Program-made: the position numbers and the translations under genes | Part shown: one piece after another, positions 8,867 through 15,115 of the stretch | How the letters are laid out: the number at the start of each line of letters is the position of its first letter | Numbering within the stretch: the stretch's first letter is position 1 | Notes under the pieces: model-generated | Seen by the model: the letters and a program-made list of their open reading frames with translations, nothing else | Told to the model about the DNA's origin: nothing | The model's database searches: none | NCBI GenBank assembly: GCA_029266525.1 | Contig: JAQSWQ010000007.1 | Location: 1-64,000, forward strand | Origin: Microvirga sp. | GTDB taxonomy: Bacteria; Pseudomonadota; Alphaproteobacteria; Rhizobiales; Beijerinckiaceae | DNA: 64,000 nt | Reading direction: 5' to 3'

Positions 8867-9889
8867 TCACGGCTGCGCGGCAAACGCATCGACCGCCTCG
8901 CCGGCAAGGTTGAGGCCGAGCAACGCCTCGGTCGCCGGAAGCCCGGCTCCGAGCGGGCGCGCCGCCGCGGGAAGGAGCCGGATCGCCTCGGCCCGCTCGC
9001 GGGCGAGGGCCTGCGCCTCCTCGATCGACACCGCCGCGAAGCGGATCGCTTCGCCGGAGCGCCGCTGCGCCACGAGGCGCAGATCGGCCGAGATCACGGT
9101 CGCGAGCTTCGGGTAGCCGCCGGTGGTCTGACGATCGGCCATCATCACGATCGGCTCGCCGGAGCCCGGCACCTGCACGGAGCCGGTCACGATCCCGTCC
9201 GAGACGATGTTGAAGCCGCGGGCGTGCGCGATCTTCGGACCGGTCAGGCGGTATCCCATGCGGTCGGCCTCGCGGGAAACCGTATAGGCGGACGAGAGAA
9301 AGGTCTCGATCCCCGCCTTGGTGAAGTAGTCGTCCTGCGGGCCGAGCACGATCCGGACCGTCGCTGCGTCGAGCGGCACGGGATCGAGCGCCAGCTCGGG
9401 ACCATCCGGCGCATCGGCAAGGATCAGCGGCAGCAGGTCGCCGGCCTGCAGCGCCCGGCCGCCGAGCCCGCCGATGCCAGCCCGCGGCTGCAGTGAGAGG
9501 CTGCCGAGCTGCGGGTTAAGAGCAAACCCGCCCGAAGCCGCGAGATAGGCGTAGACGCCCGACTGCGCCGGCCCGACCGTCACGACCTCGCCGGCGCTCA
9601 GCGAGACTGCGCTCATTGGCAAGACCTGCCGGCCGTCAAGGGTCACCGCGCAAGGCGCGCCGGCGATGGCGATTCGCACCGAGCCGCCCTGCGCCTCGAA
9701 GGTCCCGCCCATCAGCATGAACTCGATCGCGGCGGCGCCCGGCCCGTTACCGACGAGCGCGTTGGCCGCCGCCAGCGCGAGCCGGTCCATCGCGCCCGAG
9801 CTCGAGACGCCGTAGCGCTGCCAGCCGAAGCGGCCGGAATCCTGGATCGAGGTCATCGGGCCGCAGGCCTTCACCGACAGCGCCGTCAC
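8867..9889 (-). CDS. pxpC: 5-oxoprolinase subunit PxpC (biotin-dependent carboxyltransferase-like)
   Basis: Part of the PxpABC complex that hydrolyses 5-oxoproline (pyroglutamate) to glutamate with ATP; formerly KipA/allophanate hydrolase-like subunit 2. From the GTG at 9889 the protein has 340 residues. TSIQDSGRFGWQRYGVSSSGAMD near the N terminus is the family signature, and MADRQTTGGYPKLATVISADL occurs later. The GTG overlaps the pxpB stop as GTGA. The track ORF extending to 10375 is a shadow of pxpB. PxpA (LamB/YcsF) is not in the window. Confidence 0.88.
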   Translation of the reverse strand: MTALSVKACGPMTSIQDSGRFGWQRYGVSSSGAMDRLALAAANALVGNGPGAAAIEFMLMGGTFEAQGGSVRIAIAGAPCAVTLDGRQVLPMSAVSLSAGEVVTVGPAQSGVYAYLAASGGFALNPQLGSLSLQPRAGIGGLGGRALQAGDLLPLILADAPDGPELALDPVPLDAATVRIVLGPQDDYFTKAGIETFLSSAYTVSREADRMGYRLTGPKIAHARGFNIVSDGIVTGSVQVPGSGEPIVMMADRQTTGGYPKLATVISADLRLVAQRRSGEAIRFAAVSIEEAQALARERAEAIRLLPAAARPLGAGLPATEALLGLNLAGEAVDAFAAQP

Positions 9890-10672: not shown

Positions 10673-11059
10673 TCAGAGCGCGGGCCGCTCGGCGGTAAGG
10701 GCGAGCGCGGCCGGCCGGCCAGTCCCGGCGGAGGCCCCCGGCAGGCAGGCGAGGATCGCCTCCTCCAGAAACGGCTTTGCCACGAAGCCCGCACAGGAGA
10801 GCGCCGCCGGGATCTCGCTGCGCTTCGACCCGGTCACGAAAGCGAAGCCGACGGCGCGCTCCTGAAACGCCAGAGCAACCTCGAAGCTCTTGCCGTCGCG
10901 CACGTCGACGTCGAGCAGCGCGAAATCGATGTCGTCGTCGAGCCAGCGCCGCGCTTCGGCGACCGAAGCGCAGACGCTCGCGACGTGGCCCTCGGCCTCG
11001 ACGATGGCCTGCAGGTCGAGCGCGATGAAGGGGTCGTCTTCGAGAATGAGGATACGCAC
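10673..11059 (-). CDS. Single-domain response regulator
   Basis: A receiver domain with no output domain, 128 residues from the GTG at 11059 (VRILILEDD). That GTG is preceded by GTGGAG at a normal distance, so I prefer it to the GTG at 11080. The acidic pocket is in LEDD, the phosphoacceptor Asp in FALLDVDVRDG, the switch Thr in FVTGS and the conserved Lys in FVAKPF. Such stand-alone receivers pass or drain phosphate for histidine kinases, often in the alphaproteobacterial general stress response. An EcfG-like promoter lies about 100 bp upstream, which supports that role. Confidence 0.85.
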   Translation of the reverse strand: MRILILEDDPFIALDLQAIVEAEGHVASVCASVAEARRWLDDDIDFALLDVDVRDGKSFEVALAFQERAVGFAFVTGSKRSEIPAALSCAGFVAKPFLEEAILACLPGASAGTGRPAALALTAERPAL

Positions 11060-11156
11060 GGCGATACTCCACTTCCGCACGGACGTTCGCGCCGCTCGCA
11101 GGACCTCGAAGGGCCTGCTGGCGTGACCGACGCTCGCCGTTACGGAACGCGGGAAG

Positions 11157-11182
11157 AACGAAGCTTCAAACCCGGGAGTTCC
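11157..11182 (-). promoter_or_regulatory. EcfG-type promoter for the response regulator gene
   Basis: On the minus strand GGAAC (11182-11178) is followed after 17 bases by CGTT (11160-11157). This matches the published GGAAC-N16/17-CGTT consensus of the alphaproteobacterial general-stress sigma factor EcfG. A transcript would start near 11150 and have a leader of about 90 bases before the GTG at 11059. Confidence 0.6.
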
Positions 11183-11285
11183 TGGGTCGGCGCCGAATGC
11201 GGATAAGTTGAGGGATTAGGTTTAAGCGAGCGTTACCGGCGGCCCCCGTTGAAAAACGCCCAGCCGCCCCCATATCCCGAACAAG

Positions 11286-11401: not shown

Positions 11402-11436
11402 CAAACGGAAACGCCGGGCCCTCGCGAGCCCGGCGC
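11402..11436 (-). terminator. Rho-independent terminator
   Basis: The minus-strand stem CGCCGGGC...GCCCGGCG (11412-11435) is followed by TTTCCGTTTGT. It lies just after the stop at 11458 and would end the leftward membrane-protein operon. Confidence 0.7.
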
Positions 11437-11457
11437 TTCGGTTTCGTGACGCTGCGG

Positions 11458-12255
11458 TCAGTGGTTCTGGAAGCGTCCGGCCGGGCCGCGGCGCTGCTCG
11501 TCGCCGCGCCACTCCGACTCGTGCGACGCGAAGCGCTCGTCCCCTTCCCCGAAAGCTTCGTCGACGTATTCCCGTCCGCGCTGGGTCATGTCGCGGGCAT
11601 AGCGCATGCCTTGGTTTCGGACCTCGTCCGACCAGCGGCCGAAGGTGCGGTCCTCCTGGCGGGTGCGGGGCAGGAGCGCGCCGAGGAGAAGGCCGGCGGC
11701 AAGCCCGACTACGCCGACCAGAACCGGGTTCTCGCTCACGAAGCGCTGCACCGAGCCGCCGTACCGGCTCACATCCGGCATCGAGCGCCGCATCTGCTCG
11801 AACTGCCGCGAGCCCTGCTCATAGGCGCCGCGCGCCCATTCGGAGGCCTGGTCATAGGCCTCTCCGGCCATCTCGGAGGCCTGCTCGTAGACTTCCCCGG
11901 CCCGCTTCTGGACCTGGTCCATGGTTCCGGCGCCCTGGGATGACGACCCGCCTTGCCCGGCACCCGAGCGATGCTCGCCGCCGAGGCCCTTGCCGGCGTC
12001 CTTGTCCTGGTGCCGCAGGTGCTCGGGCCCCTGGCTGGACTGGCCCGAGCCGGTCTGAGAGCCGCCCATCGGCTTCGAGGTGTGGGAAGCCAGCGTTGCG
12101 CTCTGGCCCGAACGCGCCTGCGGGTTCGGCGGCTGGCCGGCGCCGCCGGTCGAGCTGCCTGCCGAGATGTTTGCGGCGGAGACCGTGTCGGAGCCGCTGC
12201 GCTGCTGGTTCGACGGGTTCGTGCCTTGTGGGTTGCTGCCGGGCTTCGGGTCCAT
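11458..12255 (-). CDS. Low-complexity protein with C-terminal DUF883-like membrane segment
   Basis: About 265 residues. The first half is rich in Gly, Ser and Gln and looks disordered. The second half has helical repeats (YEQASEMAGEAYDQASEWARGAYEQGS) and then ENPVLVGVVGLAAGLLLGALLP, a single membrane segment like the glycine-zipper tails of ElaB/YqjD (DUF883) proteins. After it comes a charged tail. Start chosen at the ATG preceded by GAGGAGGAA; the ATG at 12294 overlaps the previous stop as ATGA but has no such site. Last gene of the stress module, before a terminator. Function unknown; envelope or ribosome tethering is inference from the family. Confidence 0.75.
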   Translation of the reverse strand: MDPKPGSNPQGTNPSNQQRSGSDTVSAANISAGSSTGGAGQPPNPQARSGQSATLASHTSKPMGGSQTGSGQSSQGPEHLRHQDKDAGKGLGGEHRSGAGQGGSSSQGAGTMDQVQKRAGEVYEQASEMAGEAYDQASEWARGAYEQGSRQFEQMRRSMPDVSRYGGSVQRFVSENPVLVGVVGLAAGLLLGALLPRTRQEDRTFGRWSDEVRNQGMRYARDMTQRGREYVDEAFGEGDERFASHESEWRGDEQRRGPAGRFQNH

Positions 12256-12290
12256 GTGTTCCTCCTCGTTCTCTCTCTGGTTCGGGTCGT

Positions 12291-12695
12291 TCATGCGCGG
12301 GCGCTGATCTCGCGCCGGGTCTCGACGACATCCTGCGTCGGATGCCGGGGCGAGCTGTCGGGGTCGTAGACGCGGTCCTGACCGGTGACGATCAGCGGCA
12401 CGCTCTCCTCCTCAATCATCTCCGCCCGCCTGAGCTCCGGCGAGCGGCGGTCCCGGCCCATGCGATAGAACAGCCAGCCGAGCCCGGCAGCGACCAGCAT
12501 CACCGGCACGGGGTTGCGCCGGACGACCTCCACTGCGTGGTCGAACACCGGGCCGAACTCGGTCTTGCGCACCGACCCCATCATCTCGTCGACGATCCCG
12601 GACGGCGAGAGCTTGTCCTGGATCTGATCGATGGTGTGGTCGAGGCGGGCGCGGCTCGCTTCGATGTCACGTTCGAGCCGCTCGATCTCCGTCAT
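12291..12695 (-). CDS. DUF3618 domain protein
   Basis: 134 residues from MTEIERLERDIEASRARLDHTIDQIQDKLSP, which is the DUF3618 N-terminal helix signature. It is followed by a hydrophobic segment NPVPVMLVAAGLGWLFYRMG and a charged C terminus. The ATG overlaps the stop of the holin-like gene as ATGA. DUF3618 proteins are small inner-membrane proteins of unknown function that usually occur next to DUF1469/holin-like genes, as here. The N-terminal extension in the track is a shadow of the upstream gene. Confidence 0.82.
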   Translation of the reverse strand: MTEIERLERDIEASRARLDHTIDQIQDKLSPSGIVDEMMGSVRKTEFGPVFDHAVEVVRRNPVPVMLVAAGLGWLFYRMGRDRRSPELRRAEMIEEESVPLIVTGQDRVYDPDSSPRHPTQDVVETRREISARA

Positions 12696-13087
12696 GCCGA
12701 CGCCCTCTCCGAGAGGACCGTGGCGTCGCGCTGGACGTTGCGGATGGTCCGGTCGGGCGCGAGCGTCGAGGCCGACATCTTGCTGCGCCCGTACATCACG
12801 AGCCCACCGGCGATCGCGCCCATGACCACCGCAACGATGAGCGAGGCGAGCGCCTCCGAGTTCAGCCGGACCGCGAGCCACTCGACGAGCGACTGCGTGA
12901 GCAGGCTGATCGAGATGATCGCGAACACCGCCGCGCCGACGAACATCCCGAGCCCGATCGCGAGGTTCCGGACGTTCTGGCTCATCTCGGTCTTGAACAG
13001 CGCGAACTCCTTGCGGGCAAGGTCGGTGCTGTCGCGTAGCGCATCGCCGAGGAGCGCGTGGATCGATTGACCCTGATGATCAGCCAT
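12692..13087 (-). CDS. Holin-superfamily III / DUF1469 membrane protein
   Basis: 131 residues from MADHQGQS, with GGGGAGGC upstream. The N-terminal amphipathic helix (LLGDALRDSTDLARKEFALFKTEMSQN) is followed by two membrane segments (GMFVGAAVFAIISISLLTQ and ALASLIVAVVMGAIAGGLVMY). This is the layout of the Phage_holin_3_6/DUF1469 family. Despite the name there is no phage context; it sits in a chromosomal string with DUF3618 and DUF883-like genes. Its role is unknown. Confidence 0.8.
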   Translation of the reverse strand: MADHQGQSIHALLGDALRDSTDLARKEFALFKTEMSQNVRNLAIGLGMFVGAAVFAIISISLLTQSLVEWLAVRLNSEALASLIVAVVMGAIAGGLVMYGRSKMSASTLAPDRTIRNVQRDATVLSERASA

Positions 13088-13100
13088 TGAGAGCCTCCCC

Positions 13101-13673
13101 TCAGGCGCCGGCATAGGCGGAGCCGGGCGAGGCCTGCGCGCGGGCGCGCTGTCCCTGCCCGCGCGACCGCTTCGAGGCGGTGCGGCGTCGCTGCTGCTCG
13201 TCGCGGATGTTCTCGGCCGAGGCCTTGATGAAGCGGGCGACCAGGAAGCCCGCCATCATGGTCGCGGCGGCGACGGCGCCCGGCCGGCGGCGGATCAGGT
13301 ATTCGGCCTCGTCGAAGAGCTCGTTGAAGCTGCGGGCGCGGATCGAGTCCGCAAGCTGGTCGATGCCCTGGGCAGCGTTGTCCACCAAGGTCTTGATGTT
13401 GGGGCGGTCGTCGAACTGCCCGCAGGCCTCGCGCAGGGAGTGGCCGAAATCGGCGATGGACTGCGCGATGGCATCCTTGCGCTGGTCCATGTAGCCCGTG
13501 GCCTGATCGCGGGCGGAGCTCAGGAACTCGCGGCCCTGATCGGCGGCTGCGCCTGCGATGCCGCTCACGTCGTCCTTGATTGCGTCCCACGACTGGGGCA
13601 CGCCACCGCTCGCGGCCGAAGGAGCCGACGCCTGCTGGTTTGGACGTTGCTGTCCGCCATTGCCCACGGCCAT
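13101..13673 (-). CDS. Hypothetical membrane-associated protein of the stress module
   Basis: 190 residues from MAVGNGGQQ, preceded by CAGAGGAGG. A polar N terminus is followed by helices (QGREFLSSARDQATGYMDQRKDAIAQSIADFGHSLREACG), a region EAEYLIRRRPGAVAAATMMAGFLVARFIKASAEN with one hydrophobic segment, and a basic tail (RRRTASKRSRGQGQ). I cannot assign a family beyond a general likeness to DUF883/apolipoprotein-like helical proteins. First gene of the four-gene unit with the holin-like, DUF3618 and DUF883-like genes, and it has an EcfG-like promoter. Confidence 0.75.
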   Translation of the reverse strand: MAVGNGGQQRPNQQASAPSAASGGVPQSWDAIKDDVSGIAGAAADQGREFLSSARDQATGYMDQRKDAIAQSIADFGHSLREACGQFDDRPNIKTLVDNAAQGIDQLADSIRARSFNELFDEAEYLIRRRPGAVAAATMMAGFLVARFIKASAENIRDEQQRRRTASKRSRGQGQRARAQASPGSAYAGA

Positions 13674-13702: not shown

Positions 13703-13727
13703 AACCCTGCCAAGCGCGGCAGGTTCC
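13703..13727 (-). promoter_or_regulatory. EcfG-like promoter for the four-gene membrane module
   Basis: Minus-strand GGAAC (13727-13723) is followed after 16 bases by GGTT (13706-13703), one mismatch from the EcfG CGTT element. The spacer and flanks form a dyad AACCTGCC-N6-GGCAGGGTT, which could also bind a regulator. The likely transcript start is about 25-30 bases ahead of the ATG at 13673. Confidence 0.45.
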
Positions 13728-13821: not shown

Positions 13822-15033
13822 TCACGCCTGCGCGGCGCCGACCCGATCCGCCATCTTCGCGCCGCGGGCGCCGAGCGGCTTCTTCGGGCCTTCGGTCGTG
13901 TCCTTCGCGGTCTGGTGCTCGAGCTCCGCGTTGAGCTCGCCGCCGAGAAGCACGATCGTGGTCGACAGCCAGATCCAGGTCATGAAGCCGATCGCCGCAC
14001 CGAGCGAGCCGTAGGTCTCGTTGTAGTTGCCGAAATTGGCGACGTACCAGGAGAACAGCATCGAGCCGACGAGCCACATCGTTCCGGCGATGCCGCTGCC
14101 CCAGGTCACCCAGCGCCACTCGGCTTTGTCCCGGCTCGGCCCATAGCGGTAGAGGCAGGCAAGCCCGAACAGGATGCCGAGCAGAAGGAGCGGCCAGCGG
14201 GCGAAGGACAGGAGCTTCTCGATGAATCCCCCGAACGGGATCAGCTTGAGCACCACGGGGATGACCACGACGGCCGTGAGCGCGGCGAGCAGGAACAGGA
14301 TCGCGCCGAGCGTGAAGGTGAGCGAGATCAGGTTCAGCTTGAAGAAGGAGCGCTTCTCGTCCTCCTCGTAGACGATGTTGAGGGCGTCGAACATCGCCTT
14401 CATGCCGGCGTTCGCGCTCCACAGCGAGATCGCGAGGCCGAAGAAGAAGGCGAAGCCGAGCGCGCCGCCGGGCTTCGAGGTGATGTTCTTCACCTGCTCC
14501 TCGATGATCTGCAGGGCGCCGCCGGGCAGGAAGCCGGAGAGCAGCGCAAGGTGCTGGTTGATCGTGCTCGCGTCGGCGACGAGGCCGTAAAGCGAGACGA
14601 AGGCGGCGATGCCGGGGAAGATCGCAAGGAGCGCGTAGAAGGTGACGCCGGCCGCGACGGCGAGGATGCGATCCTCGCCCATCTCGGCATAGACGCGCCA
14701 GAGGATGTCCTTCCAGCCCTTGGCCGGCATCTCGCTCGGCGTCTCGGCGTCGCGGCCGCGATCCTTCTCGGTGAGCTCCTTGCGGGCGGCCTCCGGACCG
14801 GCGTGCGAACGTTCGTCAGACGACCCGCGGTCGCGCCGCGCATCCGGCCGCCGCGCCGGAGCGGCGGTTCCGCGCCTCACCAGGGCGGTCGCTCCGACGG
14901 GTGCGGCGGCGCCGCGCTTCGCGCCGGCGAGCTTCGTCAGCGCGTAGCCGAGAAGAAGCGTGCCCAGGGTCGAGAGGGGGCCTCGCGAGCGCGAAGCGTC
15001 GCTGCGATGTGCGCCGGCCGATGCGACTGCCAT
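13822..15033 (-). CDS. YihY/BrkB family inner-membrane protein
   Basis: 403 residues from MAVASAGAHRSD. An N-terminal Arg/Ala-rich cytoplasmic region of about 110 residues is followed by the YihY/virulence-factor-BrkB domain. Its hallmarks are ILAVAAGVTFYALLAIFPGIAAFVSLYG, LGFAFFFGLAISLWSANAGMKAMFDALNIVYEE and YGSLGAAIGFMTWIWLSTTIVLLGGELNAELE, with about six membrane segments. An exact EcfG promoter ends at the ATG at 15090, so the transcript should begin inside that frame, making 15033 the usable start. The track ORF running to 15933 is a shadow of the upstream ATPase. Function of the family is not established. Confidence 0.85.
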   Translation of the reverse strand: MAVASAGAHRSDASRSRGPLSTLGTLLLGYALTKLAGAKRGAAAPVGATALVRRGTAAPARRPDARRDRGSSDERSHAGPEAARKELTEKDRGRDAETPSEMPAKGWKDILWRVYAEMGEDRILAVAAGVTFYALLAIFPGIAAFVSLYGLVADASTINQHLALLSGFLPGGALQIIEEQVKNITSKPGGALGFAFFFGLAISLWSANAGMKAMFDALNIVYEEDEKRSFFKLNLISLTFTLGAILFLLAALTAVVVIPVVLKLIPFGGFIEKLLSFARWPLLLLGILFGLACLYRYGPSRDKAEWRWVTWGSGIAGTMWLVGSMLFSWYVANFGNYNETYGSLGAAIGFMTWIWLSTTIVLLGGELNAELEHQTAKDTTEGPKKPLGARGAKMADRVGAAQA

Positions 15034-15090: not shown

Positions 15091-15115
15091 AACGGAGGCT
15101 CGCCGGGCAAGTTCC
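15091..15115 (-). promoter_or_regulatory. EcfG-type promoter for yihY-like gene
   Basis: Minus-strand GGAAC (15115-15111), 16 bases, then CGTT (15094-15091): a perfect match to the general-stress consensus. It lies immediately after the stop of the peptide transporter ATPase gene and would give the yihY-like gene its own stress-induced transcript. Confidence 0.7.

Follow-up and report, generated by a model that had tools for sequence, protein, structure and literature searches.

An EcfG-type site upstream of an orphan receiver gene

The window is the whole stretch of DNA analysed, 64,000 nucleotides from a Microvirga sp. genome. Its minus strand carries a cluster of five genes followed by a gene for a single-domain receiver, and the features of this region are listed in the direction of transcription.

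15091-15115, minus strand: second EcfG-type site, GGAAC-N16-CGTT, before the YihY/BrkB gene (counterpart in the congener L085)
13822-15033, minus strand: opening gene of the upstream cluster, for a membrane protein of the YihY/BrkB family
13703-13727, minus strand: third EcfG-type site, GGAAC-N16-GGTT, about 30 bp before ATG 13673 (counterpart in L085)
13101-13673, minus strand: uncharacterised cluster protein
12692-13114, minus strand: Phage_holin_3_6 superfamily membrane protein of the cluster
12291-12707, minus strand: DUF3618 protein of the cluster
11458-12294, minus strand: uncharacterised last gene of the cluster
11408-11439, minus strand: terminator-like hairpin with a 14-pair stem, between the upstream cluster and the receiver gene
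11219-11225, minus strand: TTAAACC, the equivalent of TTAACC in near relatives, placed 43 bp upstream of the -35 box
11157-11182, minus strand: EcfG-type promoter GGAAC-N17-CGTT (-35 at 11182-11178, -10 at 11160-11157)
11067-11070, minus strand: GGAG, putative ribosome-binding site of the receiver gene, from direct reading
10673-11059, minus strand: single-domain receiver of 128 aa, GTG start at 11059 (longer alternative, GTG 11080)

An earlier note on this DNA had described a GGAAC-N17-CGTT motif about 100 bp ahead of a stand-alone receiver, and this description was confirmed. The site is exact: GGAACTCCCGGGTTTGAAGCTTCGTT, at 11157-11182 on the minus strand, is made up of GGAAC, a 17-nt spacer and CGTT. 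It is intergenic and on the same strand as the receiver gene, and the same-strand gene upstream stops at 11458. The end of the -10 element lies 97 bp from GTG 11059, the best start, and 76 bp from GTG 11080, the start of the longest reading frame. Because GTG 11059 has GGAG 7 bases upstream and begins the family's conserved start VRILILEDDP, the receiver was taken to be 128 aa long. The reading frame is indeed single-domain, matching Pfam Response_reg with an E value of 7e-6 (26.6 bits, slightly under the curated cut-off of 30.2), and no kinase gene adjoins it in the window, where it stands as an orphan.

The possibility that the receiver is the last gene of the YihY-DUF3618 cluster was considered and set aside, as the 14-pair hairpin at 11439-11408 and the gap of about 400 bp favour a separate unit; terminator-like sites in the region numbered 3 against 2.0 expected. 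The congener L085 has EcfG-type sites at all three places, those of the cluster being at L085:10192-10216 and 8873-8897, and the YihY-holin-DUF3618 genes probably form an envelope operon of the general stress response. Cluster and receiver are kept together in Enterovirga and likewise in Microvirga, although no YihY gene was detected in the stretch read from the latter, and other neighbours are shared by the Salinarimonas receiver.

Conservation of the promoter across genera

Taken alone, a single promoter match is weak evidence for EcfG control. The window contains two GGAAC-N16/17-CGTT sites against 0.94 expected, a count equalled in 22 of 100 shuffles, and the whole genome contains 92 such sites against 58 for the reversed pattern. 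Both counts lend something to the view that the motif matches by chance and that the gene is free of EcfG control. Relatives of the receiver, collected by one scan of genome contigs, numbered 80 and came from Microvirga, Enterovirga, Salinarimonas, Bosea, Methylopila, Belnapia and others. The motif GGAAC-N16/17-[CGT]GTT was present at -145 to -30 in 48 of the 80; TGTT here, and likewise CATT, are our own widening of the consensus, made after the data were seen. The corresponding figure in shuffles was 0.3 on average and 3 at most, and the density of the motif elsewhere in the relatives' loci predicts 1.3 sites. With the strict form, GGAAC-N16/17-CGTT, the same interval held a site in 26/80 relatives against 0.07 in shuffles.

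In orthologues of the same bacterial family the motif recurs between -78 and -108, counted from the matched segment of the receiver; eight loci have it exact, and in others a single base differs. Upstream of the FTTGYG-type receivers of those same genomes there was no exact motif match. In a tree of 106 receivers, a site preceded 34 of the 58 members of the window receiver's clade and 2 of the 48 receivers outside it; these rows are not independent, 40 of the 80 loci (thinned for the tree) being from Microvirga. Since the site is conserved at a specific position across several families (48/80 against 0.3 in shuffles), and other receivers of the same genomes are without it, we reject a chance match as very improbable. 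The EcfG-like reading of the promoter is strongly supported by this conservation across genera, and the comparisons point strongly to EcfG control of the receiver gene.

The window site, GGAAC-N17-CGTT, also fits the EcfG consensus published for Methylobacterium, GAAC-N16,17-C/GGTT (PMC4814048). Seven Methylopila-group species have GAAAC-N16-CGTT at -68 to -70 instead (L165, L170, L171, L172, L175, L182 and L184), possibly a lineage-specific variant of the EcfG -35 element, and no recognisable site was found in some clade members, namely Belnapia, Phreatobacter and some Methylobacteriaceae MAGs. A class-wide profile search pulled in general receivers, and its yield is no measure of the breadth of the clade.

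The stress circuit of the host genome

PhyR is encoded on C4, scoring 366 bits against a cut-off of 240, and the genome also encodes NepR (divergent; Pfam match), two EcfG-type sigma factors, on C100 and C129 and both away from the phyR locus, and HWE kinases, with 14 matches. With PhyR, NepR and two EcfG-type sigma factors present, an EcfG-type promoter can be served in this genome. Separate FATGUY-type receivers are encoded at C108 and C129.

Several further features of this circuit were observed. The gene for the first EcfG-type sigma factor (L193:2080-2652) is preceded, at about 280 bp, by an EcfG-type site. That of C129 (L194:2572-3414, minus strand) has an N-terminal extension that appears NepR-like by eye; a NepR-like extension of an EcfG-type sigma factor has been reported for Methylobacteriaceae (PMC4814048). 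Around phyR-nepR, ten strict GGAAC-N16/17-CGTT sites are densely placed on both strands, several as divergent pairs (L073:3096-9309; G000:C4:91-97 kb). On C108, an EcfG-type site lies 56 bp before what looks like an operon encoding a PAS-HWE kinase together with a FATGUY receiver that has the motif PFVFATGYG (L075:974-2879; G000:C108:50973-52878).

A separate subfamily of receivers

The acidic pair E7 and D8, the phospho-acceptor D50 and K95 are invariant in 58/58 clade members, in which residue 76 is S or T without exception (T76 in the window protein). With its phosphorylation residues complete, the receiver should be phosphorylatable. AlphaFold2 returned a confident receiver fold and nothing else (pLDDT 88, with low confidence for residues 110-124). 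Helix 4 is missing from this model, which makes a CheY-like output face unlikely.

Among known proteins, the FATGUY receivers SdrG, MrrA and Sma0114 are alike in standing alone, in having a complete phosphorylation site and in having no helix 4, a helix absent from Sma0114 (PMC9981736) and from our model. They are also the nearest solved relatives by sequence, SdrG being the best sequence match and second-best fold match in the PDB. However, where FATGUY receivers have PFxFATG[G/Y], the clade has [PG]F-A-F-V-[ST]-[GA]-S (consensus PFAFVS[GA]S; GFAFVTGS in the window receiver), and D+2, which is N in MrrA, is D or E in the clade. PRK13435, the nearest curated group in NCBIfam, scored 30-47 bits against cut-offs of 119-171. 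In a tree that also sampled the known groups, the clade stood apart from the FATGUY receivers SdrG and Sma0114, from PhyR receivers and from five LOV-kinase-adjacent receivers, with support of 98/92. Identity as an SdrG/MrrA-type receiver was rejected on the absence of PFxFATG[G/Y] and on this separation.

LovR of Caulobacter is likewise a single-domain receiver; expression of LovR/LovKR is under the general stress sigma factor SigT and a negative feedback that drains phosphate has been proposed (PMC5964349), while EcfG-type control of the window receiver is a prediction. LovR is encoded and works with the kinase LovK, whereas the window gene is an orphan, and this genome gave no LOV-kinase match at E 1e-70. 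The five LOV-kinase-adjacent receivers, which do not include Caulobacter LovR, fall outside the clade without forming one group, and HSGD, STG or LTA replaces the FVSGS-type motif in them. Identity as LovR is not supported by the orphan state of the gene and the position of the LOV-linked receivers sampled.

The receiver domain of PhyR resembles the clade in helix 1 and, more weakly, in the beta5-alpha5 face. The window receiver differs from PhyR in having no sigma-like domain, in having D rather than Q at D+2, and in regions 3 and 4. In receivers, helix 1 belongs to the surface on which kinases dock. The window receiver shares 60% identity with the host's own PhyR in this helix, which in 58/58 clade members is nearer to PhyR than to FATGUY receivers. 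This likeness is not exclusive, as FATGUY receivers are nearly as near to PhyR there (1.99 vs 2.22 per column), and the idea of a uniquely PhyR-like helix 1 is weakened to that extent.

By motif and by tree, the receiver family is a separate subfamily, outside the FATGUY group and the sampled LOV-kinase-linked receivers. It is best called a subfamily of the single-domain receivers linked to the general stress response, an already known kind. The earlier note's suggestion of a new member among the known feedback receivers thus holds in part: a receiver linked to the general stress response is likely, but it is neither a FATGUY receiver nor grouped with the LOV-linked receivers sampled. No description of the subfamily was found in the open-licence literature searched, a scope outside which most subscription papers lie.

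Relatives in general stress response loci

The gene of the Bosea relative is part of the phyR-nepR-ecfG locus, with about 2 kb between it and phyR. It stands tail to tail with the gene for a CHASE3-HisKA_2 kinase, and the NCBIfam family that this kinase matches best is PhyK. The Phreatobacter relative lies beside phyR and ecfG. An HWE kinase gene adjoins the relative in Belnapia, Roseicella, Paracraurococcus, Chthonobacter and one Salinarimonas copy, with an overlap between the two genes in the case of Chthonobacter. These neighbourhoods support the connection with the PhyR-EcfG cascade that had been proposed for the window receiver, and indicate that the receiver is likely to be involved in the general stress response.

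A proposed feedback on PhyR phosphorylation

From the conserved promoter, the full set of phosphorylation residues and the stress loci around relatives, we infer EcfG dependence, phosphodonors in common with PhyR and a direction of feedback. The proposal is an orphan, phosphorylatable receiver, transcribed by EcfG from 11182-11157, that would feed back negatively on PhyR phosphorylation through shared donors; we give it a little short of an even chance. Under stress, phosphorylated PhyR would bind NepR, freeing EcfG, which would then transcribe the receiver gene from this promoter. The receiver would take phosphoryl groups from the donors of PhyR, either HWE/HisKA2 kinases or a PhyK/PhyT-like phosphotransferase, and would thereby feed back on PhyR phosphorylation, most likely negatively, as a phosphate sink or competitor. 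FATGUY receivers have kinases in common with PhyR (PMC5898713), and by analogy the present family could use PhyR's donors too. The sign is a guess, in which negative feedback is favoured because the FATGUY tyrosine has been lost and because the SigT-controlled LovKR sink offers a precedent.

The opposite sign would follow if the receiver were a positive relay like SdrG or MrrA, handing phosphoryl groups of stress kinases on to PhyR by way of a PhyK/PhyT-like phosphotransferase, with EcfG control acting as positive feedback. SdrG and MrrA are single-domain receivers upstream of PhyR (PMC5898713, PMC5964349), and FATGUY receivers act positively. The rank of SdrG in the sequence and fold searches and the PhyK-like kinase gene adjoining the Bosea relative are also consistent with a relay. 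Nevertheless, the PFxFATG[G/Y] of known relay receivers is absent from the window receiver, including the exposed tyrosine thought to help them touch the partner kinase (PMC9981736), and the genome has FATGUY-type receivers of its own, so that we consider a relay unlikely.

Negative feedback could also be exerted by direct inhibition, as by Osp and FixT, single-domain receivers of negative feedback loops acting on a kinase (PMC9430884). A receiver of this type would bind a kinase of the general stress response and block its autophosphorylation, itself unphosphorylated; its helix 1, being PhyR-like, could serve for docking on the same kinases. Osp and FixT have no acidic residues before helix 1 and are unphosphorylated (PMC9430884), whereas here the site is full, with E7, D8 and D50 invariant in 58/58, and direct inhibition seems distinctly improbable.

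As the arrangement is found again in many related genera, at times within the core stress locus, the receiver is probably an undescribed feedback part of the general stress response, whose switching-off and tuning are poorly known in Hyphomicrobiales. The subfamily offers a defined and conserved candidate, with its promoter, its motif (LDxDxxDGK, PFAFVSGS) and culturable relatives in Bosea and Microvirga, and suggests that control of receivers by EcfG is more frequent than one would gather from the few cases studied.

A conserved element upstream of the promoter

In Microvirga, Enterovirga and Salinarimonas the GGAAC box is preceded by TTAACC at a distance of 42-44 bp. Within the same loci, TTAA(A)CC was found about 30-55 bp upstream of 30/60 receiver sites and of 0/242 other EcfG-like sites, and TTAACCAT is present upstream of the receiver promoter in nine loci. 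We take TTAACCAT and the TTAACC element to be CtrA-half-site-like. A TTAACC common to the nepR promoter, 40 bp upstream of it, occurs in this genome but in none of 29 relatives, and is probably due to chance.

The conservation of this element in near relatives would suit a receiver that is an output of the EcfG regulon with a target outside the stress circuit, for example in motility, the cell cycle or the envelope. The window neighbours are of similar bearing, being a membrane-protein cluster with EcfG-type sites of its own and no signalling genes. Against such an output stand the relatives found in phyR-ecfG loci and beside HWE kinases, as well as the model, which is without helix 4, an element of the face commonly used for output; we think a target outside the circuit improbable. 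If feedback on PhyR phosphorylation is the true role of the receiver, the CtrA-like element in Microvirga, Enterovirga and Salinarimonas would also link that feedback to the cell cycle.
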